Virus record (IMG/VR): IMGVR_UViG_3300033151_000594
Span: 1-41,268 of that record
Strand: one strand, 5' to 3'
Length of the DNA: 41,268 bases
Source: a virus
A program made the translations under genes and the position numbers. Position 1 is the first letter of the stretch. Each line of letters starts with the position of its first letter. Below, one piece after another: positions 1,844 to 40,369 of this stretch. The notes below the pieces were generated by a model that did no database searches, was not told the DNA's origin, and was given only the letters and a program-made list of their open reading frames with translations.

Positions 1844-3816
1844 TATTGTGTTGGTGCTACTGGTAAATTAAGTTGTGATTGTTCTTCTGACTCTTGTCCT
1901 TCTACAGGAGCTTCAAGTTGAGCTCCTCCAGGAGCAGCATCAGCAGGTAATGCTTCTTGTTCTGCTTGATCACTTGATAAATCATAATCATCGACGTCTT
2001 CATTGAATGAAACAATTGTATCTCTGATTAACTTCTCTTCATTCTTCTGGAAGAATTCAGGGAAGGCAGTTCCTAGAGTTCTTAGTTTATCTTCATTCTT
2101 ACTAACTGAATAAGAGCCATTCTTTTGATACATATCTTCAGAAACAATCTTAATCTTATACTCCCATCCCTTTAAGTATTCAGCGGTAACTGCTATCTCT
2201 TCATAGTTTACATCAGGATTAACAGCTTTGAATTCTGTGACATTCTTATCGATATCAGATTGGACTGGAAGAGATTCTTTATCTTTTGCAATAATAATAC
2301 CTCTTGTTCCTTTCTGTCCATTTGCTAAATCAACATTCTCTACAAGAAACTTTCTGAATTGCTCTCCTTTTTCTTTACCAACAACCGCATTGATTCTACT
2401 AGGAGGATAGTAAGTTAGAATATTAAGAGCTCTAAGTTTAATCTTCTGCATCCAAAAACCAGTAATAAACAAGAAGAATATTCCTTTCAACTCTCTAGCT
2501 TTCTCATTGGCAATAACAACTTCTCTTGCAGTAACTCCTGTTCCTTGTACTCCTTGCTGTGCTGAATCAACTGAACTTAAATCTAATCCCTGACTAATAA
2601 GCTTGATCATATTAAACTCCGATTGAGTTGTTCCTGAATTAGGCATCTCTTTGACCTGATTAATATCCTGAACATAAACCTTTGTATCCAATGTAATCAT
2701 CTCATCTTCGAGATCAAAGTCATCCTTATTTATATTTCCTATTAACAAGTTAGTAACAAGACTCTTATATGTCTTATCAGCTGTCATATTATAAAATGAA
2801 TTGATGATATCCTGCTCACCCATCAACGCGTTAGGCAATGAATTCATCCAAAAGAAATCACCTGAAAATGGAGCATATCCACCTTTAGAGAATGGATAAT
2901 ACTTCTCTTCTTTACCAAGCATCATAGGAGCATCAAGCATATTGATACCATTAGCAACAATAACATTTTCATCACTAATCTTATTGAAATAACGAATCAC
3001 TTCAATAGGTCTTTCCTTTGTTCTAACATTCCAATCCTCAAAGAAATATCTCTCGTCCATATCTTTCTCGACTAATTCATTGCCAGTTCTAACATGTTTA
3101 TAGTTAGGATAGTTACTAAACTCATAAGCAAAGTCTCTCTTTGACATGTATTGAACCCAGATAACAGCTGGTTGATCTTGAATATCTCTGACGTAAGCAC
3201 TGTAAACGAAAAAGTTTTCAAGAGGAACAATAAAACTTTTACATCCTTTGTCAATAGTTATCTTCTTTTCTTCAAATTCTACTTCTCCTGTAACTACATC
3301 AAATGATGTTACTTCCTTTCTTGTAACTTTAGTTTTCAAATAACCATCATAATCAATCACTGTTCCCTTTATCGCAGCATCTAAAGTCTCATAGAAATTC
3401 TCTTCTTCTTTGTTTTGATTATCATAACTAGCCTTAACAAGATCCGAAACCACTCCAGCGACCTTCATATTCGTTTCATTCTTTTCATTAACGGCTGTGA
3501 TTCTCATTGGAGGAACATCAAGAGCCACAGAAGCCAATATTGCCATCGTCTTATTCCTTGTAACCGGATGAAAGAAGTTAGCTTGCCATTTCTCTTTAGA
3601 TTGACTCTTTCGACTAGGAACATAACTATTAAACCTTTTCTCTGAATCATCTACGAATTGAGTAAGAGTACGATCATTAAAGTAATGATAAGGCTTATTG
3701 GTTACATCTCTCATCAATTCAAACTCCTCGTAAATCCTTCTTACGAGTTGCATATCCTTAATAGATGGATTATATTTATTCTTTGGCTTATCTAGTTGTT
3801 CTATTTCTTTATTCAT
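1843..3816 (-). CDS. Portal protein
   Basis: The 657-residue protein lies just after the terminase block, where the portal always sits, and its length fits podoviral P22-type portals (about 600-725). It forms the dodecameric DNA channel at one head vertex. The N-terminal region holds helical and Tyr-rich segments (RRIYEEFELMRDV, ENFYETLDAAIKG), then a core with YPFSKGGYAPFSGDFFW and a region MGEQDIINSFYNM typical of the wing and stem. The C-terminal about 40 residues are a Gln/Glu/Pro/Ala-rich tail (EQEALPADAAPGGAQ) likely disordered. Its start overlaps the end of the upstream gene by 8 bp. Confidence 0.85.
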   Translation of the reverse strand: MNKEIEQLDKPKNKYNPSIKDMQLVRRIYEEFELMRDVTNKPYHYFNDRTLTQFVDDSEKRFNSYVPSRKSQSKEKWQANFFHPVTRNKTMAILASVALDVPPMRITAVNEKNETNMKVAGVVSDLVKASYDNQNKEEENFYETLDAAIKGTVIDYDGYLKTKVTRKEVTSFDVVTGEVEFEEKKITIDKGCKSFIVPLENFFVYSAYVRDIQDQPAVIWVQYMSKRDFAYEFSNYPNYKHVRTGNELVEKDMDERYFFEDWNVRTKERPIEVIRYFNKISDENVIVANGINMLDAPMMLGKEEKYYPFSKGGYAPFSGDFFWMNSLPNALMGEQDIINSFYNMTADKTYKSLVTNLLIGNINKDDFDLEDEMITLDTKVYVQDINQVKEMPNSGTTQSEFNMIKLISQGLDLSSVDSAQQGVQGTGVTAREVVIANEKARELKGIFFLFITGFWMQKIKLRALNILTYYPPSRINAVVGKEKGEQFRKFLVENVDLANGQKGTRGIIIAKDKESLPVQSDIDKNVTEFKAVNPDVNYEEIAVTAEYLKGWEYKIKIVSEDMYQKNGSYSVSKNEDKLRTLGTAFPEFFQKNEEKLIRDTIVSFNEDVDDYDLSSDQAEQEALPADAAPGGAQLEAPVEGQESEEQSQLNLPVAPTQ

Positions 3817-4615: not shown

Positions 4616-6106
4616 TTAATACCCCCCCATATTTAAATTATACCCACCCTCACTATCATCTGAATCTCTCTTCTTACTTATCCTTCTTTTCATTTGAGCT
4701 TGCGCTGCATGAGACTTAGGAAATGCAAATGTTAACATTAAACTATCTGCAACATCAGGACTATCTATGCCCTTCTTTCTCATCTCATCTTTACTCATTA
4801 TGATCATTGTTCCTGAGCTATCCTTAACTTTAAACTTAATCTGAGTCAATTGATACCAATCAGGATGTCTCTTTAGTTTACCTCCAGCTTTAATCCAATC
4901 TCTCACTCTCCAATAAGACTCAGCTCTTAAATTATAGAAGTTAACTTTATCTAATGGTGATGAGCTTACTTTAATCCCTTTAACAGGAATCTTCTGCTCA
5001 ATGAATCTATCAACTACACCACTTCCGACTCCGATAGCATCTATGAAAACTTCTTTCTTATCTATACTTAACTTATTACATATCTGAATAGTATTCCCAA
5101 CCGTTATCATTAAATTCTTCTCATGATCCTTTCTAGCAATAGCAGCGAAATTTTCCGATCTAACTACAAAACTATTAAAGTTAGCACCTCCTTGAGCTAC
5201 ATCAACTCCTAATCTTCTTGTTCCAAACATTGGAATATTCTCATCAACAAATGCTTCTTCTAATTCATCATCTGTTATTAATGGACTCCAACCATCTTGA
5301 TCAACCATATCAGCCGCAGGAAACTTATTCTCAAAAAGAATGTCGAAGTTAGGCTTAGTCTTTGCAATAGATAAATACTCTTCAGTTAATCTTCCTTCTA
5401 TAAGACCAATAGAGCAATCAATATTCCTACAAAAGACGCTACTATCTCTTGTGTCTGCTAAGAAATGACCTCTAGTAAAAGGGTTACCAATCTTCAAATA
5501 AAAGTAATCATCAGCATTATCAGCTAGCATACGAAAAATCTTACCTTCCATTTCATCGTCAACTAAAGCAGCTTCATCTAATACAACATTAGGAGCTCCA
5601 AATCCCATAACAGCTTCACCAGCCTTAATCTTATTACCTGAATCAACTCCAATAATGAATATCTCTCCTAATGTTCCATCAGAGTGTTTAAAATTAACAC
5701 GATCCTTTGTTCTCTTTCTTCTAAGGGACTCTATTGATTCTCCTTTATCTATTATAAGCTTAGACTTGAAGTAATCATTATCGAAGGCGTGCTGTAAGAT
5801 ATAATCCATAATGATTCTCGCTTTCTCTTTGCTCGGTGCTATAATAGACCATTTCTCTGGAAATGTAGAAGCTCTTAATAAGACCGCTAAGGCTACTGTC
5901 ATAGACTTACCAAAGCGCGTATGGGCCATTAGATGAACGCTGGGATGCTTTCGCTTCCATATATCATTAAAGATCTCACACTGAGTTCGTGTCAATTGTA
6001 ACTTCTCACCTTTTTCATTTTTAAAAAGAACTTCTATTCGCTTAAACGTCTCGTACTGTTCGTCGGTATATTTTAATGTGCGATTCTTTAATTCAACTGT
6101 GTGCAT
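4616..6106 (-). CDS. terL: Terminase large subunit (ATPase and nuclease)
   Basis: The 496-residue packaging motor has both domains. The ATPase carries a Walker A-type loop AHTRFGKS (residues 61-68) and Walker B VVLDE (174-178, E178 catalytic). The RuvC-fold nuclease carries D302 (RLGVDVAQGG), D356 (VFIDAIGVGSG) and D451/D454 (SPDVADS), the acidic triad that cuts concatemers. It acts at the portal vertex to translocate DNA into the procapsid. It follows the small subunit by 8 bp. The start at 6106 is 60 residues before Walker A, normal for the family. Its late position suggests headful or cos packaging; sequence alone does not say which. Confidence 0.95.
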   Translation of the reverse strand: MHTVELKNRTLKYTDEQYETFKRIEVLFKNEKGEKLQLTRTQCEIFNDIWKRKHPSVHLMAHTRFGKSMTVALAVLLRASTFPEKWSIIAPSKEKARIIMDYILQHAFDNDYFKSKLIIDKGESIESLRRKRTKDRVNFKHSDGTLGEIFIIGVDSGNKIKAGEAVMGFGAPNVVLDEAALVDDEMEGKIFRMLADNADDYFYLKIGNPFTRGHFLADTRDSSVFCRNIDCSIGLIEGRLTEEYLSIAKTKPNFDILFENKFPAADMVDQDGWSPLITDDELEEAFVDENIPMFGTRRLGVDVAQGGANFNSFVVRSENFAAIARKDHEKNLMITVGNTIQICNKLSIDKKEVFIDAIGVGSGVVDRFIEQKIPVKGIKVSSSPLDKVNFYNLRAESYWRVRDWIKAGGKLKRHPDWYQLTQIKFKVKDSSGTMIIMSKDEMRKKGIDSPDVADSLMLTFAFPKSHAAQAQMKRRISKKRDSDDSEGGYNLNMGGY

Positions 6107-6726: not shown

Positions 6727-6755
6727 ATTATATAGCACTTTTCAAAAAAAAGCAA
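6727..6755 (-). promoter_or_regulatory. Late promoter (sigma70-like), minus strand
   Basis: On the minus strand TTGCTT (6755-6750), 17-bp spacer, TATAAT (6732-6727). It is the only good minus-strand promoter I find ahead of terminase, and would start near 6720. Its -35 lies inside one arm of an inverted repeat whose other arm holds the -35 region of the divergent plus-strand promoter. Confidence 0.7.
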
Positions 6756-6760
6756 CCTTT
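6747..6760. repeat. Inverted repeat arm 1 (control region)
   Basis: AAAAAGCAACCTTT here is the exact reverse complement of 6869-6882, 108 bp away. Both arms cover -35 regions of divergent promoters, the arrangement expected of paired operator sites for one regulator, or a by-product of a shared promoter sequence. Confidence 0.7.
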
Positions 6761-6833
6761 TTAAGGGTTGATGCTTTCATTAAAAGATGCTATAAGTATT
6801 GTATAAACAATAAGATTCAAGACTCTTAAAAAA

Positions 6834-6855
6834 GTTATGAAGAGGTTATGAAGAG
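6834..6855. repeat. Tandem 11-bp direct repeat, likely operator
   Basis: GTTATGAAGAG occurs twice with no gap (6834-6844, 6845-6855). The 11-bp period is about one helical turn, so a protein would bind both on one face. It sits 8 bp upstream of a TTGACT -35 hexamer. It is a candidate activator or repressor site. Confidence 0.55.
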
Positions 6856-6862
6856 TTACTAG

Positions 6863-6902
6863 TTGACTAAAGGTTGCTTTTTATTTATTATTGATATATT
6901 AT
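6863..6902 (+). promoter_or_regulatory. Divergent early promoter(s), plus strand
   Basis: Two overlapping sigma70-like matches: TTGACT (6863) - 17 bp - TATTAT (6886-6891), and TTGCTT (6874) - 17 bp - TATTAT (6897-6902). The second shares its -35 context with the late promoter as an inverted repeat. A transcript would run toward the small ORF at 6938 and the terminator at 7013-7040. Confidence 0.6.
6869..6882. repeat. Inverted repeat arm 2 (control region)
   Basis: AAAGGTTGCTTTTT, exact reverse complement of 6747-6760. See arm 1. Confidence 0.7.
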
Positions 6903-6937: not shown

Positions 6938-7042
6938 ATGAAAATAGTTTTCAAAAACATAGGAGAAATCAATTCATACATTTGTGTATTGAAAAGAACC
7001 AATAATCTAATTAACCAAACATTTATTTGTTTGGTTTTTTAG
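6938..7042 (+). CDS. Possible leader peptide overlapping a terminator
   Basis: A 34-codon frame begins with ATG about 35 bp after the early promoter(s) and reads MKIVFKNIGEINSYICVLK. Its last codons and TAG stop lie inside the terminator hairpin and its T-run (7013-7040). That geometry resembles leader-peptide attenuation, in which ribosome position decides termination. It could equally be chance: the peptide matches nothing known to me and lacks a Shine-Dalgarno sequence. Confidence 0.3.
   Translation: MKIVFKNIGEINSYICVLKRTNNLINQTFICLVF
7013..7040 (+). terminator. Rho-independent terminator
   Basis: AACCAAACA (7013-7021), 6-base loop, TGTTTGGTT (7028-7036), running into six T residues (7035-7040). 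Orientation is plus strand. It would end the short transcript from the promoter(s) at 6863-6902, or attenuate the early operon. Confidence 0.85.
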
Positions 7043-7230
7043 TCCATGAAAACGTAGAATACGTCGCTTAATCAGGGATTCCGACTAAAAACAGAAAGAC
7101 TCTGAGAAGATCTAAATGAGTAGCTTATTTGTCTGTAGGTACCAGTTAACAAGGTATGTAGTCAAATTCCAGGCTCTGTGAGAACAACCTGGACCTTAAT
7201 CTGCATGTCTTGAAGATAAGTTAAACACTC
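7042..7230 (+). ncRNA. Structured noncoding segment (unknown RNA)
   Basis: No credible gene fits here. The segment can form a series of hairpins: ACGT/ACGT (about 7051-7063), GTCG/CGAC (about 7064-7086), ACAGA (7091) with TCTGT (7132) enclosing ACTC/GAGT, TACC/GGTA (about 7139-7156), and TTCCAGG with CCTGGA (about 7167-7193). A TCTTGAAGAT near 7208 is complementary to ATCTTCAAGA near 7314. Bases are less AT-rich than the flanks, as structured RNAs often are in AT-rich genomes. No family is recognised; it could be the start of a long untranslated leader. Confidence 0.4.
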
Positions 7231-7426
7231 ACTCCATTTTACTAAACAAAACAAACACTAACATCGTTTTAAAAAATTGAATTTTGCTTTTTTTTAAGAC
7301 TACATTCTATTTAATCTTCAAGATAGAATATAAATATAAACATCAATATCACAATCATTTAATCTCAGTATTCTCTTATATTAAGGTACAATCTAATTTT
7401 ACAAAAAAAAGTCTTCGAATAAATAC
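7231..7426. other. AT-rich intergenic stretch, no gene seen
   Basis: Very AT-rich sequence without an ORF of note. It contains a TTTTGCTTTTTTTT run near 7285 resembling the -35 context of the divergent promoters, and the 7314 partner of the long-range complement to 7208. A weak TACAAT near 7387 is not a convincing promoter. I see no further feature. Confidence 0.5.
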
Positions 7427-7483
7427 TAGAACATGAATGTAATATTATACAACGGTTGATTTATTTTATACATGATGTATAAT
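7427..7483 (+). promoter_or_regulatory. Early promoter P1, copy of cassette at 9879
   Basis: TTGATT (7456-7461), 16-bp spacer, TATAAT (7478-7483). The 29 bp upstream of the -35 (TAGAACATGAA... AACGG) match the promoter at 9879-9935 base for base at most positions with identical spacing, so the whole cassette is duplicated. The predicted start near 7490 is 20 bp before the first early ATG. Confidence 0.8.
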
Positions 7484-7510
7484 AAGAATATTAATAATTA
7501 ATATATAAGT

Positions 7511-7720: not shown

Positions 7721-7763
7721 CGTATTCTGGTGGTGTAAAAGCCACCAGTCCCTTATAGGGAAT
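7721..7763 (+). ncRNA. Compact two-hairpin RNA element (H0)
   Basis: Directly after the stop codon, CTGGTGG (7727-7733) pairs with CCACCAG (7742-7748) and TCCC (7749) with GGGA (7758-7761); ATTC/GAAT can close them as a three-way junction. There is no U-run, so it is not a standard terminator. It begins the array of structured elements and may stabilise or process the upstream mRNA. Confidence 0.55.
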
Positions 7764-7859
7764 AGTTATTTAAAAGAGAGAGTGGATCTGAAACCGTATA
7801 GGAGCTAGAAAAGTGCACACTGATAAGCAAGGTGCAAATCCTTGCCTCTCTCTTTTAGA
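7763..7859 (+). ncRNA. tRNA-like stem-enclosed RNA element S1
   Basis: AAAAGAGAGAG (7772-7782) pairs perfectly with CTCTCTCTTTT (7846-7856), extendable with A-U and G-U pairs. A hairpin GCAAGG - TGCAAAT - CCTTGC (7827-7845) abuts the 3' strand with no gap, like a T arm stacked on an acceptor stem. The interior has no canonical D or anticodon arm, and GTGCAC (7813) could pair with the TGCA of the T-like loop. The first 23 and last 27 bases recur in S2, so S1 and S2 are paralogues with different interiors. Function unknown. Confidence 0.6.
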
Positions 7860-7986
7860 TAGTTATTTAAAAGAGAGAGTGGCGTATGCCAATTATAATT
7901 GCAAGGTAATATACGAGTAAAACAACCAAAGGCATTATTTGTGGAAACACGCCTCTCGTCAAATCCTTGCCTCTCTCTTTTAGATA
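7860..7986 (+). ncRNA. tRNA-like stem-enclosed RNA element S2
   Basis: It has the same closing stem as S1 (7869-7879 with 7971-7981) and the same GCAAGG/CCTTGC pairing (7901-7906 with 7965-7970), but about 50 bases are inserted in the T-like loop. The insert folds into ACGAG/CTCGT (7913 with 7955) with a GTG-GAAA-CAC tetraloop hairpin near 7941-7950. GGCGT (7881) can also pair with ACGCC (7949). It ends 17 bases before the ATG at 8004. A conserved frame around a variable centre suggests a folding scaffold under selection. Confidence 0.6.
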
Positions 7987-8003
7987 ATTAATAAACAAAT
8001 AAG

Positions 8004-8090
8004 ATGGAAGAAATTAGATTTTTTTTAGTATTGACAGGCGTTGGTGTTTTGTTTTGTTTTGTTTGCTACTTGTACTGCCTATTATTCTAG
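8004..8090 (+). CDS. 28-residue single-helix membrane peptide
   Basis: ATG at 8004 follows the A-rich leader ATAAACAAATAAG, shared with the gene at 8262. The peptide MEEIRFFLVLTGVGVLFCFV continues with CYLYCLLF and is essentially one transmembrane helix with three cysteines. It follows RNA element S2. No family is recognised; small early membrane peptides in phages can target host membrane functions, but nothing here shows which. Real translation is supported mainly by the conserved leader. Confidence 0.45.
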   Translation: MEEIRFFLVLTGVGVLFCFVCYLYCLLF

Positions 8091-8117
8091 TGTTAGGAGC
8101 TATTAAATTATTGTTTC

Positions 8118-8242
8118 TCTAAAAACTAGGTTAACAATGACCTAATGGTATGGTCGGGATAAGCTCCGCCCATTGGTTCAATTCCAATATAATAAATGGT
8201 AAGGTGTAGGTTTGGATCCTACTTGTTAACCTAGTTTTTAGA
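8118..8242 (+). ncRNA. tRNA-like multi-arm RNA element S3
   Basis: A perfect 20-bp closing stem (8118-8137 with 8223-8242). Inside, in order: GACC - TAATGGTAT - GGTC (8139-8155), a D-arm look-alike; GGG/CCC hairpin (8156-8171); ATTGG - TTCAATT - CCAAT (8172-8188), a perfect 5-bp stem with canonical T-loop; a linker; and GTAGG - TTTGGAT - CCTAC (8206-8222) stacked on the closing stem. The span between D- and T-like arms (16 nt) is too short for an anticodon arm, so it is not a functional tRNA. It ends 20 bases before the ATG at 8262. Confidence 0.65.
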
Positions 8243-8261
8243 TAATAAATTAACAAATAAG

Positions 8262-8384
8262 ATGACTAAACAACAACTATACTACAAACTATCAATTATA
8301 AGAGACGATCATCCTGAAGTTAGAGATTTTATTGATGAGATAAGAGAAGATGATTTCTTTGAAGAATGTCATGGTATGGATTAG
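8262..8384 (+). CDS. 40-residue acidic small protein
   Basis: ATG 8262 has a leader nearly identical to that at 8004 (AGATAATAAATTAACAAATAAG). The product MTKQQLYYKLSIIRDDHPEV continues RDFIDEIREDDFFEECHGMD, acidic and helical with net negative charge, reminiscent in composition of DNA-mimic or inhibitor peptides. No homology is recognised. It is enclosed between RNA element S3 and the promoter at 8389, which starts 4 bases after its stop. Confidence 0.5.
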   Translation: MTKQQLYYKLSIIRDDHPEVRDFIDEIREDDFFEECHGMD

Positions 8385-8388
8385 GGGC

Positions 8389-8417
8389 TTGACAAATCGA
8401 TTTGATAGGAGTATACT
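8389..8417 (+). promoter_or_regulatory. Strong sigma70 promoter of pseudoknot RNA
   Basis: TTGACA (8389-8394), 17-bp spacer, TATACT (8412-8417): the best consensus match in the window. Expected start about 8423. It does not share flanking sequence with P1 and P2, and drives the structured RNA at 8423-8559. Confidence 0.85.
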
Positions 8418-8422
8418 AGACA

Positions 8423-8559
8423 GTAAGATTGAAAACTAAATAGATAACTTTTGGAACCTAAGCACTTATAAGTGCAAGCGTGTGGGGATTCTCGAAGGAG
8501 TTTCTCCAAAAGTTATCCGAAAGGAATTTCCCCATGCTTGTTCTCGTAAGTGTTTTTTT
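8423..8559 (+). ncRNA. Pseudoknot-capable small RNA with 3' U-run
   Basis: GATAACTTTTGGA (8443-8455) is perfectly complementary to 8505-8517 (13 bp). CAAGC plus TGGGGA (8475-8488) pair with TCCCCA plus GCTTG (8529-8540), and CACTTA (8463-8468) with TAAGTG (8547-8552) just before seven T residues (8553-8559). The helices interleave, so they form an H-type pseudoknot or are mutually exclusive. Local hairpins GCACT-TATA-AGTGC and CTC-GAAG-GAG fill the loops. Dedicated promoter and terminator-like end make a discrete RNA of about 135 nt, or an attenuating leader for the ORF at 8574. Unrecognised family. Confidence 0.7.
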
Positions 8560-8573
8560 ATTAAACAAAACAA

Positions 8574-8705
8574 ATGAAAGCAATAGTAGCAGCAGTATTT
8601 ATAGTAGCAGTAATAGCTCTTTCTTTTGGATGGTCATATCTACAATGGAATGAATGTAGAGAGATGGGATTCTCAAGATTTTATTGTATTAAACATGTAT
8701 TATAA
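8574..8705 (+). CDS. 43-residue membrane or exported peptide
   Basis: ATG 8574 lies 14 bp after the U-run of the preceding RNA with the leader AAACAAAACAA. The product MKAIVAAVFIVAVIALSFGW has an N-terminal hydrophobic helix of about 18 residues, then a short polar tail with two cysteines (NECREMGFSRFYC). It is a signal-anchor type membrane peptide or exported peptide. If the upstream RNA terminates transcription conditionally, this is the regulated gene. No family recognised. Confidence 0.55.
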   Translation: MKAIVAAVFIVAVIALSFGWSYLQWNECREMGFSRFYCIKHVL

Positions 8706-9665: not shown

Positions 9666-9875
9666 ATGAACGTAAAGGAATTAATAGAAGAGTTGAGTAA
9701 GCACCCAGAGGACACAAGAGTTTTCTTCCCTGGTTATGTAGGACACCCAAGAGATATTAACACAGTAGCAGTAGAAGAATTTGTAAACGACGGAGAAAGA
9801 GCAGTAAGAAACTTGTCTGTTTATGTAGGTAAAAAAGAAGTATCAGAGCCATTTGAAGGATTATTCCTGTTTTAA
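9666..9875 (+). CDS. Small conserved-type phage protein
   Basis: The 69-residue protein begins MNVKELIEELSKHPEDTRVF and is of the common phage type in which a VKELIEELS helix is followed by an acidic turn and short beta strands (TVAVEEFV, NLSVYVGKK). Such proteins occur widely in phage early regions with unknown function. It stops just before the second promoter cassette, which overlaps nothing coding. Confidence 0.6.
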   Translation: MNVKELIEELSKHPEDTRVFFPGYVGHPRDINTVAVEEFVNDGERAVRNLSVYVGKKEVSEPFEGLFLF

Positions 9876-9878
9876 TAT

Positions 9879-9935
9879 TAGAGCATGAAAATAAGATCAT
9901 GGAACGGTTGACTTATTTTGTAGATGCTATATAAT
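9879..9935 (+). promoter_or_regulatory. Early promoter P2, copy of cassette at 7427
   Basis: TTGACT (9908-9913), 16-bp spacer, TATAAT (9930-9935), with the same 29-bp upstream block as P1 (TAGAGCATGAA... AACGG). Conservation beyond -35/-10 suggests a shared activator site or UP-like element. It starts the second early operon with a leader of about 130 bases. Confidence 0.8.
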
Positions 9936-9956
9936 TATAGTATAAGTTAATTAAAG

Positions 9957-10046
9957 TGAATTGCGATTTAATCGAATTCCATAATAACTTAAGAAGGTGT
10001 GCTACTGAGGGGGATGGAAGAGAATTGGCTTCTTCCTCCTCAGTAA
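9957..10046 (+). ncRNA. Structured 5' leader of second early operon
   Basis: Two hairpins: GAATT-CGAT/ATCG-AATTC with one bulged G (about 9959-9980), and a long one with TACTGAGG pairing CCTCAGTA (about 10003-10045) plus an inner GGAAGA/TCTTCC. AAAAAG follows rather than a U-run, so it is a leader structure, not a terminator. It stands 28 bases before the ATG at 10074, echoing the other RNA-then-small-ORF units. Cis-regulation or mRNA protection is possible. Confidence 0.5.
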
Positions 10047-10073
10047 AAAGATTAATATTAAGATTAAAACAAG

Positions 10074-10253
10074 ATGACAAAACTCACAAACAAAGACAAG
10101 GAAAATTATTTAGTAGATGTCTTAGGATATAGTGAAGAAGAAATATATGAAATGGACTTTAATGATTACTTTGATGAAAGAGAAGAGATAGCTTGCTTAG
10201 CTTATGCTGGAAAAATAACACAAGAGAAAGCTGATGAATTACTATCTAAATAA
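10074..10253 (+). CDS. 59-residue acidic small protein
   Basis: ATG 10074 follows the A-rich leader AAGATTAAAACAAG. The product starts MTKLTNKDKENYLVDVLGYS and continues with acidic helices (EEEIYEMDFNDYFDEREE) and QEKADELLSK at the end. It is strongly acidic overall and resembles in composition small phage helical regulators or DNA-mimics. No homology is recognised. It is the first gene of the P2 operon. Its 3' end overlaps the start of a spurious upstream extension of the next gene. Confidence 0.6.
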   Translation: MTKLTNKDKENYLVDVLGYSEEEIYEMDFNDYFDEREEIACLAYAGKITQEKADELLSK

Positions 10254-13656: not shown

Positions 13657-14010
13657 ATGTATACATTAAAACTAGAGCATCATTTTGCAGCTGCTCATCA
13701 ATTGACTAATGCCTATACAAAAGAGTGTAATGATTTTCTACATGGGCATAATTGGAAAATTAGAGTAGAAATTAAAACAGATGAATTAAAGAATAATATG
13801 GTTATTGATTTTAAAAAAGTAAAAGAAATAATCAATCAATTAGATCATAAAAATCTAAATGAAGTAGTAGACTTTGAACCTACAGCAGAGAATATATCTA
13901 AATTTCTTTATCGAGAAATTAAAAATTTAAATGATAATGGGGGTAAGATTTGGTTAGTAAAAATAGTCGTATGGGAAGCAGATGGAGCATCTATAACTTG
14001 TGAGAAATAA
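13657..14010 (+). CDS. queD: 6-carboxy-5,6,7,8-tetrahydropterin synthase
   Basis: The 117-residue enzyme converts 7,8-dihydroneopterin triphosphate to 6-carboxytetrahydropterin, second step of preQ0 synthesis. Zinc ligands H14 (FAAAHQL), H29 and H31 (HGHNW) and catalytic C24 are all present, and DHKNLN and the late Glu (VWEADGAS) match the family. Length is normal (about 120). It precedes yopX, queE, folE and queC on the same strand with short gaps. The leader is A/T-rich without a Shine-Dalgarno sequence. With DpdA downstream its likely purpose is DNA, not tRNA, modification. Confidence 0.9.
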   Translation: MYTLKLEHHFAAAHQLTNAYTKECNDFLHGHNWKIRVEIKTDELKNNMVIDFKKVKEIINQLDHKNLNEVVDFEPTAENISKFLYREIKNLNDNGGKIWLVKIVVWEADGASITCEK

Positions 14011-14015
14011 AACAA

Positions 14016-14402
14016 ATGAGAGAAATAAAATTTAGAGCTTGGGATAAAAAGAAAAAATTAATGATTTATAAACCATCTTTGATTGCTTGGGATAAAAATG
14101 GACAAGCATTTATGGATATAACAGAAGAAGGAGATGAGATTGAAGGGCTATGGATAGACATTGTAATGCAATACACAGGTCTCAGAGACAAAAACGGAAA
14201 AGAGATTTATGAATGTGATATTGTAGATGTTCAATTAGATTGGGATTGTAATGGAGAAGTGGTCTTTAGAGAAGGGGAATATAGAGTAAAACTAGACAGC
14301 AAGCACGAACGAAGATATGATAGTCTCTCATTATTATTAGCCAATTCTATTGAAATTATCGGAAACATTTATGAAAATAAAGAATTAATAGAAAACAAAT
14401 GA
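14016..14402 (+). CDS. YopX family protein
   Basis: The 128-residue protein has the family's hallmark start MREIKFRAWDKKKKLMIY, then QYTGLRDKNGKEIYECDIV and the end EIIGNIYENKELI. YopX proteins are widespread in phages, form a beta-rich oligomer and have no settled function. It is inserted between queD and queE; its TGA stop overlaps the queE ATG (ATGA), so the two are translationally coupled. Nothing suggests a direct part in preQ0 synthesis. Confidence 0.9.
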   Translation: MREIKFRAWDKKKKLMIYKPSLIAWDKNGQAFMDITEEGDEIEGLWIDIVMQYTGLRDKNGKEIYECDIVDVQLDWDCNGEVVFREGEYRVKLDSKHERRYDSLSLLLANSIEIIGNIYENKELIENK

Positions 14403-15043
14403 AAATAAGAATTAACGAGATATTTTACTCGATTCAAGGAGAAGGAAAATCTGCAGGAGAACCAGTTCTTTTCGTTAGGTTGAGTGGATGTAGTTTAAAT
14501 TGTAGCTTCTGTGATTCTAAATATCATAAAGAAGAAAGAGATCTAAGTGCAGAGGATATTAACTTATTAAATACTCATAAAAGATGGGTAATAACAGGAG
14601 GAGAGCCTTTATTACAACAAGATGCTATTAATCATTTAATGAAACTATTTGCACCTAATACAGTAGAAATTGAAACGAATGGTACGATAATTGCAAACAC
14701 TCTTCATAAAGAATTAATAAGCGGTTTTAATATTTCTCCGAAAGAACAAAGGTTTCAAGTTCCGAAGACTAAAATTACTGAGCCTACTTTGTTAACTCAA
14801 AAGCATCGACTTAGTTATATTTTAAAGTTTGTTTATTCCGATAAAAAAAGTAGAAAATTCATTGAAGGCATAGTAAGTGATTATAAAATTCCATCTGGTC
14901 GTGTTTGGATTATGCCAGAAGGAGAAACAGAAGAGAAACAAAAAGAGAAAGAGCAAGAGGTATGGGATTATTGTATTGAGAAAGGTTATAATTTCAGTCC
15001 TAGATTACATGTAAATGTTTGGGGAGATAAAAGAGAAGTTTAA
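14399..15043 (+). CDS. queE: 7-carboxy-7-deazaguanine synthase (radical SAM)
   Basis: The 214-residue radical SAM enzyme rearranges 6-carboxytetrahydropterin to 7-carboxy-7-deazaguanine. It has the family opening IFYSIQGEGKSAG, the [4Fe-4S] motif C31-x3-C35-x2-C38 (GCSLNCSFCDS), and the SAM-binding VITGGEPLL. NISPKEQRF and RVWIMPEGET are also family features, as is LHVNVWGDKREV at the end. Length matches short QueE forms. It follows YopX by a 4-bp overlap and depends on QueD product. Confidence 0.92.
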   Translation: MKIRINEIFYSIQGEGKSAGEPVLFVRLSGCSLNCSFCDSKYHKEERDLSAEDINLLNTHKRWVITGGEPLLQQDAINHLMKLFAPNTVEIETNGTIIANTLHKELISGFNISPKEQRFQVPKTKITEPTLLTQKHRLSYILKFVYSDKKSRKFIEGIVSDYKIPSGRVWIMPEGETEEKQKEKEQEVWDYCIEKGYNFSPRLHVNVWGDKREV

Positions 15044-15057
15044 TAATTAAAATAAAA
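15034..15057 (+). repeat. 24-bp intergenic direct repeat, copy 1
   Basis: AGAAGTTTAATAATTAAAAT followed by AAAA, including the last codons and stop of queE, is identical to 15539-15562 at the end of the next gene. The two copies exactly flank the 162-residue gene, which suggests that this gene entered, or can be lost, by recombination between them. Confidence 0.8.
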
Positions 15058-15059
15058 AA

Positions 15060-15548
15060 ATGAAGACACAAAGCATTATTCAAGCTAGTGCGAACGTAAT
15101 CAAGCTTGTAAATTTAACGAAGGGTGACGTATTCAAATCTGTTAAATCAGATAATTATAATGACGGAATATCCTATAACATTGTTACAGAACTTTACAAC
15201 GACGGAGAGAATACTTTTATAGAGGTTGTTCAGTATGAAAAGAGTTACAACGAGGTTAATTCAAAACTAAAAGTATTTAATGGAACAGACGATATTTCTA
15301 TTTTCCCTGCAAAGATTGAAGAAGTTGAAGCGTATTTTGAAGAAGCTTTGGATGGAATAGCAAAAAGCATAGAAGAGGATAAAAAGAATTTACAGTCTAA
15401 AATTGTATCTTACGAAAAAGCACAAGAGTTTGTAGTAGGTGAGATGTCAAAGAAAATACAATCAGCTGAATTTAGTGAACAAACACAAGACGAGTATAAT
15501 TCTCAAAAAGCGTTGAAAGAAGCAAAATTAAAAGAGTTAGAAGTTTAA
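15060..15548 (+). CDS. Hypothetical protein inserted between queE and folE
   Basis: The 162-residue protein is not recognised. The N-terminal 85 residues look beta-rich with SIIQASANVIKLVNLTKGD and ENTFIEVVQYE; residues 90-162 form a long charged helix or coiled coil (EDKKNLQSKIVSYEKAQEF, SQKALKEAKLKELEV). It resembles small phage structural or regulatory proteins. It is bounded by a 24-bp direct repeat, and does not correspond to any known step of deazapurine synthesis, so it is probably a later guest in the operon. Confidence 0.65.
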   Translation: MKTQSIIQASANVIKLVNLTKGDVFKSVKSDNYNDGISYNIVTELYNDGENTFIEVVQYEKSYNEVNSKLKVFNGTDDISIFPAKIEEVEAYFEEALDGIAKSIEEDKKNLQSKIVSYEKAQEFVVGEMSKKIQSAEFSEQTQDEYNSQKALKEAKLKELEV

Positions 15549-15562
15549 TAATTAAAATAAAA
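15539..15562 (+). repeat. 24-bp intergenic direct repeat, copy 2
   Basis: Identical to 15034-15057; lies between the 162-residue gene and folE. See copy 1. Confidence 0.8.
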
Positions 15563-15565
15563 CAA

Positions 15566-16171
15566 ATGTCAGAATCACACAAGTCAAAGTTCTTTGATAA
15601 AGAGAAAGCAGCTGAAGCTACTGCATTATTACTGGAAGCAATAGGATACAACGGTATGGATATGGGTCACTGGAGTGAAGATGAGAATCTAAAAGAAACT
15701 CCTGTTAGGGTAGCTAAGTACTGGGAAATAGTTTGCAATGGTTATGATGAAGACCCTAAGAGACATTTAAAGTTATTTCCTTCAGATTCTGAAGAAAAGG
15801 TTTCTATTACTAATGTAGACTTGTATTCATTTTGTAGCCATCATTTAGCTCTGTTTCGTGGCAAAATCTCCATCTCTTATCTACCTCACGGTAAAGTGAT
15901 AGGTATCTCAAAATTACTTCGTATAGCTCGAGTTTACGCGAAAAGACTACAATTACAAGAGGATTTAGCAAGCCAAATAGCCGATTTCCTTGAGAAAAAC
16001 CTATCAGAGGACGTAGCTGTTGATATTAGAGCCAGTCATTCTTGCATGGAAATAAGAGGGGTTAGAGCGCCGGGATCAGTAACAGTTACTACTGTAGTCA
16101 GAGGTAAATATAGAACAGAGCCTGCTTTAAGGGCAGAGTTCATTCAAGATATTAATGAAGCTAAAAAATAA
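15566..16171 (+). CDS. folE: GTP cyclohydrolase I
   Basis: The 201-residue enzyme opens GTP to 7,8-dihydroneopterin triphosphate, first step of the pathway. Zinc ligands C90 and H93 (FCSHHLALF) and C160 (HSCMEIRGV) are present, as are LPHGKVIGISKLLRIARVYA and RLQLQEDLASQIADFL of the FolE-I core, and TPVRVAKYW near the N-terminus. It is type I FolE, not QueF: the family has CEHH where this has CSHH, a minor change. Carrying folE lets the phage raise flux beyond the host folate pathway. It overlaps nothing; queC follows after 4 bp. Confidence 0.93.
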   Translation: MSESHKSKFFDKEKAAEATALLLEAIGYNGMDMGHWSEDENLKETPVRVAKYWEIVCNGYDEDPKRHLKLFPSDSEEKVSITNVDLYSFCSHHLALFRGKISISYLPHGKVIGISKLLRIARVYAKRLQLQEDLASQIADFLEKNLSEDVAVDIRASHSCMEIRGVRAPGSVTVTTVVRGKYRTEPALRAEFIQDINEAKK

Positions 16172-16175
16172 AATT

Positions 16176-16868
16176 ATGAAAAAAGCAATTATAATTGTAA
16201 GTGGCGGGATGGACAGTGTAACACTTCTCTATGACGTAGTTAAAAAACATGGGAAGAAAAACATTTCAGCTATTAGTTTTAAGTATGGATCTAAACATAT
16301 GAATAGAGAGATTCCCATGGCTGAATATAACTGTAAGAAGTTGGGAGTTAAACATCAAGTAGTAAATGTTAAAGAAGTTTTTAAGAATTTTAACTCAGCC
16401 CTTCTTAATAAAAAAGACAGTGAAGCTATTCCTCAAGGACATTATGCGTCATCTAATATGAAAAAGACTGTTGTTCCTTTTAGAAATGGTATTCTTTTAT
16501 CAATTGCAGCAGGATTCGCAGAGACAAATGATGCTAAAATTATTTATTACGGAGCTCATGCAGGAGATCATACGATTTACGAGGATTGCAGAAAAGAATT
16601 TGTCGATGCAATCAGTGAGGCAATTAAGCAGGGGACTTCTAATAAAATAGTAATTAGAGCACCTTATTGGAATATGAATAAAAAAGGTATTATTAAAAGA
16701 GGAGTTAAATTAGGGGTTGATTACTCAAAGACTTGGACTTGTTATGATCCCAGGAGAAAAAAAGCTTGTGGTAGGTGCGGATCTTGCCACGAGAGATTAG
16801 AGGCATTTAAGTTAAATAAAATGACTGATCCCTTGGATTATGTTAGTATGTTTAGAGATAAAAATTAA
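16176..16868 (+). CDS. queC: 7-cyano-7-deazaguanine (preQ0) synthase
   Basis: The 230-residue ATP-dependent enzyme makes preQ0 from 7-carboxy-7-deazaguanine and ammonia. PP-loop SGGMDS is at residues 9-14; zinc ligands C189, C198, C201 and C204 (TCYDP, CGRCGSC) are at the C-terminus; YGAHAGDHTIYEDCR and PYWNMNKKGIIKRG match the family. ATG 16176 is chosen because an upstream in-frame codon lies inside folE and adds only MKLKNKI. Last of the four biosynthetic genes; dpdA lies 0.5 kb downstream. Confidence 0.93.
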   Translation: MKKAIIIVSGGMDSVTLLYDVVKKHGKKNISAISFKYGSKHMNREIPMAEYNCKKLGVKHQVVNVKEVFKNFNSALLNKKDSEAIPQGHYASSNMKKTVVPFRNGILLSIAAGFAETNDAKIIYYGAHAGDHTIYEDCRKEFVDAISEAIKQGTSNKIVIRAPYWNMNKKGIIKRGVKLGVDYSKTWTCYDPRRKKACGRCGSCHERLEAFKLNKMTDPLDYVSMFRDKN

Positions 16869-17021: not shown

Positions 17022-17351
17022 ATGGAATTAGAAAAAGAGTTACTCAAAAAACATCTTCATGGGCAAGAGAAGTATCATGCGTTCTCCTTCTTGAAAGACG
17101 GTAGAAAAATGTCAGATGAAACTATAGAAGAATTAGTGGATGGTATTAACTACTTGACTTACCAGTTAATTAAAGATAGTCACACAACAGGGGAATTGAT
17201 GAGATTATCTAATGAGCCAGATGGAGTAAAGCTTTTAAATATCATTTACACAGGTCTTATTAGTGAAATACCTAAAATGCAGACCACATCTGAAAATAAA
17301 AATATGAGAGCAATCGCAATCATGAGAGATTTAATTGAAGAATTATCCTAA
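17022..17351 (+). CDS. Hypothetical helical protein upstream of dpdA
   Basis: The 109-residue protein is mostly helical: MELEKELLKKHLHGQEKYHAF, then SDETIEELVDGINYLTYQLI, and an end RAIAIMRDLIEELS. It has a loose resemblance to phage helical nucleotide-binding proteins, such as dATP/dGTP pyrophosphohydrolase-like, but I cannot point to a full motif. It lies 10 bp upstream of dpdA and 9 bp after the zinc-ribbon gene, so it is co-expressed with the DNA modification genes. Function unknown. Confidence 0.6.
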   Translation: MELEKELLKKHLHGQEKYHAFSFLKDGRKMSDETIEELVDGINYLTYQLIKDSHTTGELMRLSNEPDGVKLLNIIYTGLISEIPKMQTTSENKNMRAIAIMRDLIEELS

Positions 17352-17361
17352 AACAAAAAAA

Positions 17362-18204
17362 ATGAAAATATCGCATATCGTGCCTACGAAATTAATAGAG
17401 AAAAATTCAGGAGAGTTCGTTATGGCTCTAGCTAATTACTTAAATAGAGACGAAGTAAATGATTATGAGGAAGCAATAACAGAGGCCTCTCTACCTATAG
17501 TCCTGGACAACGGAGCATTCGAAACAGGGACTGCAGATGGAGTCGATGATTTAATAATCAAAGCAAAAAGATTAAAACCAGCTTATGTATTTGCTCCTGA
17601 TACTCTATTTGATGCAGAGCAAACAAAAAAAGGCTTCGAAACCTTTGAGTATGTTAAAGAAAAGCAAGGAGTTAAATTCTTAACGGCTGTTGTTATTCAA
17701 GCGGATAATCTAGAGGATTACTTAAAAGAATTTCAAAAGTATAATGCAGATCCAAGAGTTTCCGTCATAGGATTATCTTATTTAGCAATAAGTTATTCAA
17801 TGAAATATGAGTCCACTAAGGATATTCCCAAGACAAAAAAGATGATAGCAAAATATCCATTTGACGTATTCTCGGATCCAGACTATACTGAAGATAGAAT
17901 TAAAATGTTAAAAGAAATTAATAATCTTAATTTAGGAAAAATTAAACCGGTTCATTTATTAGGGTTAGGGAAATCATATGAAGATATATTATTTGCAAAG
18001 GAGAATTGCGGGTATTGTTTATACAATGATACAAGTACGTGTTATATGGCCGCCAAAGAAGGATTAACTCTGACTAAAGACTTTGGAGTCCCAGGAGGTA
18101 AAATTAAAGAAAAAATCAATATAGATGAAAATCCTTCTTCTAGGGCTAAAGGGTTACTTAGTATTAATGCTAATAAAATAAAAAAAGAATTATGTCTCAA
18201 ATAA
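17362..18204 (+). CDS. dpdA: TGT-like DNA transglycosylase DpdA
   Basis: The 280-residue protein reads as a TIM-barrel base exchanger of the tRNA-guanine transglycosylase superfamily in its phage DNA-acting form. Visible family marks are VLDNGAFE (D49 candidate nucleophile or base), FAPDTLFD (D80), VIGLSYL (about 135-141), VHLLGLGKS (197-205; compare LMGVGKP of TGT) and CLYNDTSTCYM. The zinc site of tRNA TGT is not seen and the length is shorter than bacterial TGT (about 375), as in DpdA. It would swap guanine in DNA for preQ0. Start ATG 17362 is favoured over an upstream in-frame ATG inside the previous gene. Confidence 0.78.
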   Translation: MKISHIVPTKLIEKNSGEFVMALANYLNRDEVNDYEEAITEASLPIVLDNGAFETGTADGVDDLIIKAKRLKPAYVFAPDTLFDAEQTKKGFETFEYVKEKQGVKFLTAVVIQADNLEDYLKEFQKYNADPRVSVIGLSYLAISYSMKYESTKDIPKTKKMIAKYPFDVFSDPDYTEDRIKMLKEINNLNLGKIKPVHLLGLGKSYEDILFAKENCGYCLYNDTSTCYMAAKEGLTLTKDFGVPGGKIKEKINIDENPSSRAKGLLSINANKIKKELCLK

Positions 18205-28652: not shown

Positions 28653-30065
28653 TTAACTTCTTTCAAAATCTAATTCATCTTCGCTATGATAAGAAATTCC
28701 TGAGACCTTTATCTTTCTTTTGAATTTCTGACCTGAGCTCTCTCTTCTGATGGCGTCTTGTAATATTGTCATAAACATTACATAATCCCCATCATTATAA
28801 TCTCTCTTTGAATCATTCTCAGATATGTTTCTAATCTCCCATTTAAGCCAATATTCTACCATATCATATCTAACTCCAGTTAAAATATCGGTATCACTGT
28901 CTACTTGGACTATATCAGTATAAAAATCCATGTAAATGTTCTTTCCTGCATTAGTAGTGTCAATCAGACCTCCAATGTATAATTTCCCACCCCAAATAGA
29001 GAAATAACTAGGTACTTCTTCACTTTCATTATACCACACATTAGTGTTTATTGGAAGGACGACTGCTATTGAACCATCACCAGTAGCAGGTATTCCACTA
29101 AGAGTGTTGGTTGACTTAGTATTCGTTGTATAAGTCAATGTATACTTAGTGTTATCTATGAAAACATCGACTGTTCCATCTTCATCAGATAAATCAGCAG
29201 TGCTAGTTAATATTAAGCTGGTATCACTAATTTCTCCTTGAGTAGACACAGTTGTAACGTCAATATCCTCCATTAACTCAATGAATTCACGCTTATCTCT
29301 GTAGGTTAAGGCCTCATTACTACCAATTCTTACTGATAAACAAGATTTATTAGAGTTTTTATCATAGTAAGTGTCAGGTAAATCAAAGCCATACTCACCT
29401 CTATTGATTTGATCAATGATGTAATCAAATTCTTGATAATTACTCCATCTCTTTAATTTTCCTCTAACAAAGTTCAAACAAGCATTAACTTTCCTTATTA
29501 AGGTGCCATAAGTAAGATTATCCCCATAATCCTTTCCCATTTCTGTCATAACTCCATGTATTAAATACCCAACGGTATTCATCGCATATCCTGCATATGG
29601 AATAGCATCAGAATAAGCAGAGAAGGTAGATCCTATTGATTCTTTATATCTAGTGAAGTAATAACCAGCTGTATTCGCTGTGTCTTCATATCTAATCTCT
29701 GGATTAGTAGGATTTATATTCTTTAAGACTAATACTGACTTAGCTCCCGTCTCAGTGTCGGCGTGTGAAATTTCTATTTGATCATAAGGAATGATATAAA
29801 CTGGTGTATCCTTAGCATGATCCTGCAATAGATTTGATGCTAAAGTTACATCATTTACAAGGGGTGCTGTTGAAGCATGAGTCTTTATTATCTCAGTTCC
29901 TTCTTCTCCAAATTCTCCAATTTGAATTATCTTATTTATTGCAAAATCAGCTATATTGTAGACGGCTATAGAGCCATCTCCTACATCGGCTGTTTCTTTT
30001 AGTAGTGATTTATCAGTATTTATCCATAAATCCGATACATCTACTATTACTGGCTTGAGCGACAT
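28653..30065 (-). CDS. Head-tail adaptor / connector-type protein
   Basis: The 470-residue protein has an insert-like beta segment at the N-terminus (SIAVYNIADFAINKIIQIGE ... NDVTLASNLLQDHAKDTPVY), a helical core (TYGTLIRKVNACLNFVRGKL, YRDKREFIELMEDIDV), a beta module and a C-terminal helical part (VEYWLKWEIRNISENDS). The helical core with length and gene order preceding the tail hub is consistent with a P22 gp4/T7 gp11-type adaptor attached to the portal. The internal repeat-like Ig modules may decorate it. Assignment by context. Confidence 0.5.
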   Translation of the reverse strand: MSLKPVIVDVSDLWINTDKSLLKETADVGDGSIAVYNIADFAINKIIQIGEFGEEGTEIIKTHASTAPLVNDVTLASNLLQDHAKDTPVYIIPYDQIEISHADTETGAKSVLVLKNINPTNPEIRYEDTANTAGYYFTRYKESIGSTFSAYSDAIPYAGYAMNTVGYLIHGVMTEMGKDYGDNLTYGTLIRKVNACLNFVRGKLKRWSNYQEFDYIIDQINRGEYGFDLPDTYYDKNSNKSCLSVRIGSNEALTYRDKREFIELMEDIDVTTVSTQGEISDTSLILTSTADLSDEDGTVDVFIDNTKYTLTYTTNTKSTNTLSGIPATGDGSIAVVLPINTNVWYNESEEVPSYFSIWGGKLYIGGLIDTTNAGKNIYMDFYTDIVQVDSDTDILTGVRYDMVEYWLKWEIRNISENDSKRDYNDGDYVMFMTILQDAIRRESSGQKFKRKIKVSGISYHSEDELDFERS

Positions 30066-30104
30066 AATATTTAAAATTAATTATTATCATAGTTATCTTC
30101 TTTA

Positions 30105-30126
30105 GGAGGAGTACAATTACTCCTCC
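30105..30126 (-). promoter_or_regulatory. Intergenic hairpin before adaptor gene
   Basis: GGAGGAGT (30105-30112) pairs with ACTCCTCC (30119-30126) around a 6-base loop. On the minus strand no U-run follows, but the A/T leader AATAATTAATTT and the adaptor ATG do. It is one of several similar hairpin-plus-leader units in the late operon. Confidence 0.5.
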
Positions 30127-30134
30127 CAATGACT

Positions 30135-30493: not shown

Positions 30494-31096
30494 TTATTTA
30501 CGAGTTACTTCTGCGAAACCATTAATCCTTCCGTATTCTATTTCTATATGAGAACTTGCTCCGTCAAGAGGATCTGCTCCTAACAATCTTCCAGTCTTCT
30601 GATCATATCCGATGACTGCAAGCCAATGATAAGCTCTTCCATGAGACACTCTAACGATACAGGCATTGTCTTTAGAGAAAAGAATTTGCTTAATCTTAGT
30701 GATATCTCTTCTGTAATATCTATAGACGAAGTCAAATGGCAAGAAAGAATCACCGTTCCTCCAAATATACCAGCCTTTCGATGTAAATTTGGCTTTTTGT
30801 GCAATTTCTCTCGGGGTGAAATATTCTCCGAACCAATAAGAAAGCATTGAAAGATCAGTGATTAGACAACCATCTGTGCCAACATCAGTATCGCTGTCTC
30901 CAATTGGAGTATCTTTCCATTTAGGATCATCTTGTTCTAAGAAAATCCAATCTCCAGTCGTGTCGCCAACATCTTCTAATTCAATCTTTGAAAAGGTTAT
31001 CCCTTCTTTTTCTAATATCTTCTTTCTAGCCTTATTACTGTTTTCAGCTTCTACAGTATAATACTCGTTAGGCGTTTCAACTTTATATGTGTCCAT
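30494..31096 (-). CDS. C39-type cysteine peptidase, probable lysin
   Basis: The 200-residue protein has a papain-like C39 domain: WIFLEQDDPKWKDTPIGD, nucleophile C77 in VGTDGCLITDLSML, H157 in RAYHWLAVIGYD and D175 in GADPLDG. These match phage endolysin-type C39 peptidases that cut peptidoglycan cross-links. ATG 31096 is chosen because the 42-residue upstream extension passes through a hairpin and has no start context. No signal peptide is seen, so a holin is needed; a holin-like gene follows. Confidence 0.75.
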   Translation of the reverse strand: MDTYKVETPNEYYTVEAENSNKARKKILEKEGITFSKIELEDVGDTTGDWIFLEQDDPKWKDTPIGDSDTDVGTDGCLITDLSMLSYWFGEYFTPREIAQKAKFTSKGWYIWRNGDSFLPFDFVYRYYRRDITKIKQILFSKDNACIVRVSHGRAYHWLAVIGYDQKTGRLLGADPLDGASSHIEIEYGRINGFAEVTRK

Positions 31097-31122
31097 ATAT
31101 TGTTTATTAATTATTATCCCTC

Positions 31123-31190
31123 TATAAAGCCTGGAAGTGAAAGGGGAATTACTCCCAGGCTTTATAGAAGGCAGAAGGGTATCTTCTGCC
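31123..31190 (-). promoter_or_regulatory. Two hairpins in front of the lysin gene
   Basis: TATAAAGCCTGG (31123-31134) pairs perfectly with 31155-31166, and GGCAGAAG (31170-31177) with CTTCTGCC (31183-31190). On the minus strand, the A/T leader ATAATAATTAATAAAC and the lysin ATG follow. No U-run: likely mRNA stability or processing signals, possibly separating the zinc-ribbon cassette from the lysis genes. Confidence 0.6.
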
Positions 31191-32485: not shown

Positions 32486-32539
32486 TTTTATTGATTAATT
32501 ATTACATTAGAAGGCTTTTCAAAGCCCTCTGTGTAAAAA

Positions 32540-38659: not shown

Positions 38660-38699
38660 AGTCCCCTAATTATTTTAGAGGACTTAGGAAGAATCTAAG
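38660..38699 (-). promoter_or_regulatory. Intergenic hairpin pair
   Basis: AGTCC-CTAA (38660-38669) pairs with TTAG-GGACT (38675-38684) with one mismatch; CTTAG/CTAAG (38683-38699) forms an alternative hairpin reaching into the stop codon region of the upstream gene. On the minus strand, AATGTAATAATTTAATTT and an ATG follow. Terminator-like but without a clean U-run. Confidence 0.5.
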
Positions 38700-39178: not shown

Positions 39179-39201
39179 ATTGTTATTGTTACTTATTACA
39201 G

Positions 39202-39274
39202 AGCCTCGTGTAGGAATCGAACCCACGACATATTGCTTACAAAGCAATCGCTCTTCCGACTGAGCTAACGAGGC
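39202..39274 (-). tRNA. tRNA-Thr (anticodon TGT)
   Basis: A full cloverleaf on the minus strand: acceptor GCCTCGT/ACGAGGC, D arm GCTC-AGTCGGAA-GAGC, anticodon arm ATTGC-TTTGTAA-GCAAT with anticodon TGT reading ACA, variable ATGTC, T arm GTGGG-TTCGATT-CCTAC with one G-U pair. Length 73, discriminator T, no encoded CCA. It is embedded in the late virion operon between a lysine-rich protein and a beta-helix protein. ACA is frequent in this AT-rich genome, so it likely boosts late translation. Confidence 0.93.
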
Positions 39275-40286: not shown

Positions 40287-40311
40287 CTTATTTTTTTATT
40301 AATTAGCTTGA

Positions 40312-40343
40312 GCTATGGAAGCTTAGTATTAAACCTCCATAGC
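40312..40343. promoter_or_regulatory. Hairpin downstream of capsid gene
   Basis: GCTATGGA (40312-40319) pairs with TCCATAGC (40336-40343) over a 16-base loop, extendable with G-U pairs. On the minus strand no U-run follows directly. It probably stabilises the 3' end of the abundant capsid mRNA or gives partial termination; on the plus strand CCTTTTT follows, so an antisense terminator is also possible. Confidence 0.5.
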
Positions 40344-40369
40344 CCTTTTTACGCGACTGTTAATAAAGA

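Follow-up and report, generated by a model that had tools for sequence, protein, structure and literature searches.

Structured RNA elements among the small early genes of a phage and a recurrent stem, leader and start-codon plan in its genome

At the start of a block of small rightward genes in a phage genome, strongly folded segments alternate with tiny ORFs, and the question is whether these segments regulate the ORFs behind them, act as RNAs of their own, or serve the mRNA in which they lie. The window, that is the whole stretch of DNA analyzed, was the 41,268-base IMG/VR viral record IMGVR_UViG_3300033151_000594, classed as linear. Its left part is transcribed leftwards and carries the terminase, portal and capsid genes, while a divergent block of small genes runs rightward from ~7.5 kb, with the RNA array at its beginning.

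Architecture of the array

An earlier note, made from the sequence alone, had described five folded elements here, and all five were recovered on the + strand, with z-scores of -3.8 to -7.7 for the minimum free energy against dinucleotide shuffles. The first, H0 (7727–7761; z -4.8), consists of two adjoining hairpins just past the stop codon of a 69-aa ORF. It is followed by S1 (7760–7868; z -3.8), in which a closing stem of 22–23 bp encloses a 63-nt interior with a T-arm-like hairpin (7827–7845, GCAAGG UGCAAAU CCUUGC) stacked on the closing stem; no ORF is assigned to S1, and no gene follows it directly. S2 (7860–7990; z -7.7) has arms nearly identical to those of S1 (repeats D3 and D7), a different 91-nt interior and an inner helix GCAAGG/CCUUGC. 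S3 (8118–8242; z -5.5) is closed by a perfect 20-bp stem, and its interior holds a D-arm-like hairpin (8140–8154), a T-arm-like hairpin (8172–8188, AUUGG UUCAAUU CCAAU) and a third hairpin (8206–8222). Alignment of S1–S3 gave nothing meaningful outside the arms. The fifth element is a pseudoknot RNA (8424–8559; z -4.5), its start placed by a promoter-like site, in which a P1 helix of 13 perfect pairs (8443–8455/8505–8517) crosses P2 (about 8475–8488/8528–8540), and which ends in U7 at 8553–8559.

These elements also stood out from the rest of the genome. In a + strand fold scan of 633 windows, S2, the pseudoknot, S1 and a leader at 9946 ranked 1, 3, 4 and 5, rank 2 being the complement of a late-region hairpin; S3 reached only -2.4 because no window framed its whole stem. 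A stem scan over the 41 kb placed S1 (7760–7782/7846–7868), S3 (8118–8137/8223–8242) and S2 (7860–7879/7971–7990) at the top, and these three together with the combination of the S1 5′ arm and the S2 3′ arm were the four best long-range stems.

Tiny ORFs follow three of the elements closely, as the earlier note had reported, with stem-to-start distances of 13, 19 and ~18 nt. S2 is followed by ORF28 (8004–8090, +), encoding a hydrophobic 28-aa peptide, and S3 by ORF40 (8262–8384, +), encoding a 40-aa peptide; both are without family match. Behind the pseudoknot lies ORF43 (8574–8705, +), encoding a small membrane-type peptide that has a homologue in a distant virus (E 1.1e-12), with the motif ECRExGFSRFYC. 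The two share the C-terminal motif QWxECRExGFSRFYC, located at 3488–3634 in that very distant virus (L008), and no match to the ORF43-type peptide was found among annotated phage records. Further downstream, a structured 5′ leader (9944–10046, +; z -3.6 for 9950–10050), here called the 9957 leader, ends 28 nt before the ATG of a 59-aa ORF at 10074. The suggestion that it repeats the plan of the array held for structure and spacing; this leader, like the pseudoknot, follows a promoter-like site of its own.

Three sigma-70-type or similar promoter-like sites were assigned on the + strand. The sigma-70-type site at 7456–7483 (TTGATT-16-TATAAT) precedes the 69-aa ORF and is expected to drive this ORF, H0, S1, S2, ORF28, S3 and ORF40. 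A second site (8389–8417, TTGACA-17-TATACT), agreeing with the consensus at 11 of 12 positions, ends 7 nt before the pseudoknot RNA, and a third (9908–9935, TTGACT-16-TATAAT) precedes the 9957 leader. The first and third lie in copies of a 70-nt block (7422–7491 and 9874–9943, 77% identity). Promoter-like matches in the region were no commoner than in shuffles (22 found, 22.9 expected), and score and position are what these assignments rely on. With them, S1–S3 would be internal to the predicted transcript from 7456; the pseudoknot and the 9957 leader would each form either a 5′ leader or an RNA of its own. A relative of the phage, L006, also has promoters starting CGGTTGAC, and at 5851–5884 it carries a promoter-like site so near an ATG that a leaderless mRNA would result. 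In the window, the divergent intergenic region contains a 14-bp perfect inverted repeat, AAAAAGCAACCTTT, around 108 nt (6747–6882; fold z -2.0), and an ORF-free stretch 5′ of the rightward genes (7040–7235) that appeared RNA-like by eye folded no better than shuffles (z -0.6).

The Rfam scan that the earlier note had proposed gave no family: no array element matched any family of Rfam 15 at the gathering score, and a permissive search returned chance-level matches only. Homologues of the array were not found by blastn against phages; five matches to Bacteroides phages (E 0.2) covered only 35 nt (query 262–296), comprising the A-rich leader and the start of ORF28. Exact arm patterns were not found in viral and genome contigs either. 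Close kin are scarce, and this absence of arm and interior homologues among phages and viral and genome contigs is weak evidence.

Several known types of element were considered and rejected. The helix order fits an HDV-like ribozyme, but the expected joining segment contains no C, and Rfam gave no match. The layout of stems and small ORFs prompted the idea of integron attC sites, but the arms lack the GTTRRRY/RYYYAAC core. A preQ1 riboswitch, considered given the preQ0 genes of the phage, gave no match; a type III toxin-antitoxin RNA would lack both its repeats and a toxin-sized gene; and for tmRNA there was only an 11-nt chance match. The preQ0 (7-deazaguanine) synthesis genes themselves encode QueD-, QueE-, FolE- and QueC-type proteins (13657–16868) and are common to the window and L006. 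They are followed by a 289-aa protein (17335–18204) which we take to resemble a phage TGT/DpdA-type enzyme, and for which no Pfam, NCBIfam or PDB match was found.

Stems and A/T-rich leaders before gene starts

Nearly all of 37 gene starts inspected lack a Shine-Dalgarno sequence and are preceded by leaders such as TTAATAAACAAATG. The nearly identical A-rich leaders behind S2 and S3, which the earlier note had singled out, are therefore present but not specific, being the usual start context of this phage. The same holds for the arrangement as a whole. A hairpin, a 13–33 nt A/T-rich leader and an ATG also occur before lysin-type and virion genes, and a restriction of the plan to tiny or toxic ORFs is not supported. 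Of the 21 gaps that precede a gene start and measure 45 nt or more, 11 had a fold z-score of -3 or below, one of which, before 38991, holds a tRNA gene.

The clearest late example is a 21-bp hairpin at 31118–31171 (− strand), 21 nt before the proposed start of the lysin-type gene at 31096, in which both mismatches are G–U on the mRNA strand. This gene probably starts at 31096, after the leader, rather than at the same-frame upstream ATG at 31222. On the same strand, a hairpin at the boundary that separates the major capsid gene from the gene that follows (40310–40345) lies 23 nt before the ATG, one of ~12–15 bp (30099–30132) lies 33 nt before the start at 30065, and others lie 23 nt before 32485 (32509–32530), 26 nt before 38633 (38660–38684) and in the gap before 1403 (1488–1518). 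These spacers compare with 13 nt for S2, 19 for S3, 18 for the pseudoknot and 28 for the 9957 leader. The late hairpins have no U-tract, which speaks against intrinsic terminators. S1–S3, the pseudoknot and the 9957 leader are the most elaborate members of this genome-wide plan of a stable stem, an unstructured A/T-rich leader of 13–33 nt and a start codon.

The inverted-repeat search that yielded the stems of S1, S2 and the lysin hairpin was strand-neutral, yet all seven mismatches in them are G–U wobbles on the mRNA strand. About five of the seven are independent, since S1 and S2 have arms in common, and the calculated chance that a random mismatch would be G–U on that strand is 1/6. This indicates that the structures act as mRNA and not as DNA. 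Fold z-scores, scan ranks and wobble-only mismatches together bear out the claim that structured RNAs lie on the coding strand far beyond chance, and, as the sequence shows, S1–S3, the pseudoknot and the 9957 leader are structured untranslated parts of mRNA, formed on the coding strand and situated either between genes or at the 5′ ends.

Relatives were sought by terminase, exonuclease, wHTH and ORF43, which gave one fairly close virus (L006, terminase 80% identical to that of the window) and a few distant ones. The early region of L006 has no DNA homology to the array, so a covariation comparison of S1–S3 lacks a partner. The capsid-boundary hairpin, in contrast, is at the same place in both genomes with 14 of 14 pairs kept; five pairs are changed on both sides, two on one side, and none is broken, while sliding the partners by 1–3 columns gave at most one double change. 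The hairpin before 1403 keeps all of its 10 pairs with two double changes, which is weak on its own. Pairs kept with changes on both sides indicate that gene-boundary hairpins are selected as RNA in this phage family. By the same gap test, L006 has only one clearly structured gap.

Two further folded segments in relatives, both picked by eye, resemble S1–S3 in plan and not in sequence. One is large and opens the early region of L006 (7140–7445, −; z -3.1), and the other, in L008 (2577–2761, +; z -3.6), has ~20 closing pairs and ends 14 nt before a small ORF. As cases of a similar plan before small early ORFs they are suggestive.

Possible roles of the elements

The reading that we tentatively prefer, by analogy, is that these are intercistronic and 5′-leader structures that define, protect or insulate the ends of mRNAs, the nearest precedent being the RNase III sites of phage T7. 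The stems of ~20 bp would undergo cutting or capping and thereby give every small ORF a separate mRNA end that is protected or insulated from the remaining transcript, in the manner of the RNase III sites in the T7 early transcript. The looped-out interiors of S1–S3 may be released as small RNAs, and the pseudoknot and the 9957 leader, directly behind promoter-like sites, would be the 5′-end structures of primary transcripts. We infer the cleavage, protection or insulation, as well as the enzyme. This reading is favored by the top-ranked folds and stems, the wobble-only mismatches, the occurrence of the plan before ordinary genes, the compensatory conservation and the open starts. Stems of about two helical turns between cistrons, as in RNase III sites, were found in S1, S2, S3 and the lysin hairpin (20–23 bp), and the other hairpins are shorter. 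Against processing, several late hairpins of only 9–16 bp would be short RNase III substrates, no gene stands immediately after S1, and processing does not require complex interiors with T-arm-like hairpins; the single clearly structured gap of L006 also speaks against equal strength across the family. The T-arm-like arms of S1 and S3 lie outside what ordinary mRNA processing explains.

The elements could instead be cis-regulators (attenuators, switches or thermometers) of the tiny ORF behind each, with the pseudoknot and U7 forming a promoter-proximal attenuator. Their position directly before ORFs agrees with this, as do the promoter-like site and U7 end of the pseudoknot, the competing rod and pseudoknot folds, and the common arms that let the 3′ arm of S1 pair with the 5′ arm of S2. 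The predicted folds, however, leave start regions mostly open, that behind S3 being 0.92 unpaired with or without S3, which argues against simple start-codon sequestering as the form of the cis-regulation proposed in the earlier note. Furthermore, no riboswitch family matched even at E 10, and the plan recurs before the lysin-type gene and at virion gene boundaries. We consider such regulation unlikely.

Tentative resemblance to tRNA raises another possibility, that S1–S3 are stable excised small RNAs acting in trans as partial tRNA mimics (T-arm and elbow with a long closing stem), for example on a host tRNA enzyme, an RNA-degrading complex or a tRNA-targeting defence. When perfect hairpins of 5 bp with a 7-nt loop were collected from both strands of the whole window, only two had a T-loop-like sequence (TTCRANY or TGCRANY), and these fall in S3 (8172–8188, AUUGG-UUCAAUU-CCAAU, fitting TTCRANY) and S1 (7828, CAAGG-UGCAAAU-CCUUG, loop TGCAAAT). 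Shuffled genomes contained 0.34 such hairpins on average, and two within 400 nt in 0 of 400, a result that is suggestive and not conclusive because the TG variant was admitted after seeing S1 and the statistic is partly post hoc. U–G directly follows the 5′ arm in S1 and S3, and in S3 a D-arm-like hairpin with GG comes after it. T-loop motifs are also present in many non-tRNA RNAs. D- and T-like hairpins occur together only in S3; S1 has the T-arm alone, neither is closed in S2, and S1 and S2 have no anticodon arm. Neither the tRNA covariance model (RF00005) nor ARAGORN matched within the array, the only scoring gene being tRNA-Thr at about 39201–39274. The tRNA-like hint has some support in the two T-arm-like hairpins, although none of the elements scores as a tRNA. 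That tRNA-Thr (TGT) gene is the only tRNA in the record, and the tRNA of L006 (15826–15897) lies in a stretch aligning with its region. A precedent is given by bacterial Y RNAs, for which tRNA mimicry has been described and which bioinformatic work has identified in mycobacteriophages (PMC12282133). No Ro/Rsr (TROVE) gene was matched in the record by a search that detected its positive control, although part of the genome may be missing from the record and Rsr could come from the host. On balance, a role of S1–S3 as tRNA mimics appears improbable. Decoys for a host defence and exonuclease-blocking structures, listed beside tRNA mimics in the earlier note, may be further roles.

For the pseudoknot (8424–8559), a third option is an independent small RNA that would have a promoter and an intrinsic terminator to itself and no functional relation to S1–S3, an option compatible with other readings for them. 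The promoter-like site 7 nt upstream, the U7 3′ end and the 13-bp P1 are in keeping with this. However, ORF43 begins 14 nt past the U-run with the usual leader, making read-through likely; the terminator scan did not pick up the hairpin at the U-run, which lacks the compact form of a terminator; and promoter-like sites are overall as frequent in shuffles. The pseudoknot RNA may belong to ORF43 as its 5′ leader or exist as a small RNA by itself, and the fully independent version seems quite unlikely.

Distinctly doubtful is the boldest combination, in which S1–S3 would form a new class of phage RNA, closed by long helices, bearing T-arms and excised from early mRNA between micro-genes, that acts in trans on the tRNA or RNA-decay machinery of the host and leaves every micro-gene a message of its own. 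Very improbable indeed is that the inverted repeats work as DNA (origin, recombination or protein-binding sites) with incidental RNA folding, since, despite long inverted repeats close to the divergent gene boundary, the seven mismatches pair only as coding-strand RNA, the elements are placed relative to start codons, and the compensatory changes at the capsid boundary include G–C to G–U.

Comparison with known systems

Knowledge of structured RNAs between phage genes comes mostly from a small number of model phages. In the present phage, which is without Shine-Dalgarno sites, stems and A/T-rich leaders stand at about half of the larger gene gaps, and this plan, with compensatory change at the capsid boundary, offers a concrete case for processing or protection of polycistronic mRNA in such phages. 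If the T-arms of S1 and S3 matter, tRNA-like phage RNAs would be added to this picture.

With tRNA, the array shares the T-arm hairpins (S1 and S3) and the D-arm-like hairpin (S3), and differs in its acceptor-like stem of ~20 bp, the lack of CCA and of an anticodon arm in S1 and S2, and the lack of a covariance-model or ARAGORN match. Bacterial and phage Y RNAs (YrlA) have ends closed by a long stem, with which the closing stem of S3 and its T-arm- and D-arm-like interior may be compared; in contrast, S1–S3 are embedded in an mRNA operon, the window has no Ro/Rsr gene and no Rfam match, and S1 and S2 lack a second arm. The 5′-terminal stem-loops of ompA/papA type, cited in PMC3997798 as stabilizing bacterial mRNA, are comparable to the pseudoknot and the 9957 leader, which also lie at putative transcript 5′ ends and are followed by an unstructured leader, although the pseudoknot of the window, with two long helices and a U7 tail, is more elaborate. 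The nearest precedent is the RNase III sites of the T7 early transcript (PMC8708148). Compared to these R1.1-type sites, S1–S3 have multi-branched interiors of 63–91 nt with T-arm-like hairpins, two of them share arms in tandem, no Shine-Dalgarno sequence follows, and they are candidate cleavage sites; in both, stems separate the early genes on a polycistronic phage transcript and stand immediately 5′ of the starts.
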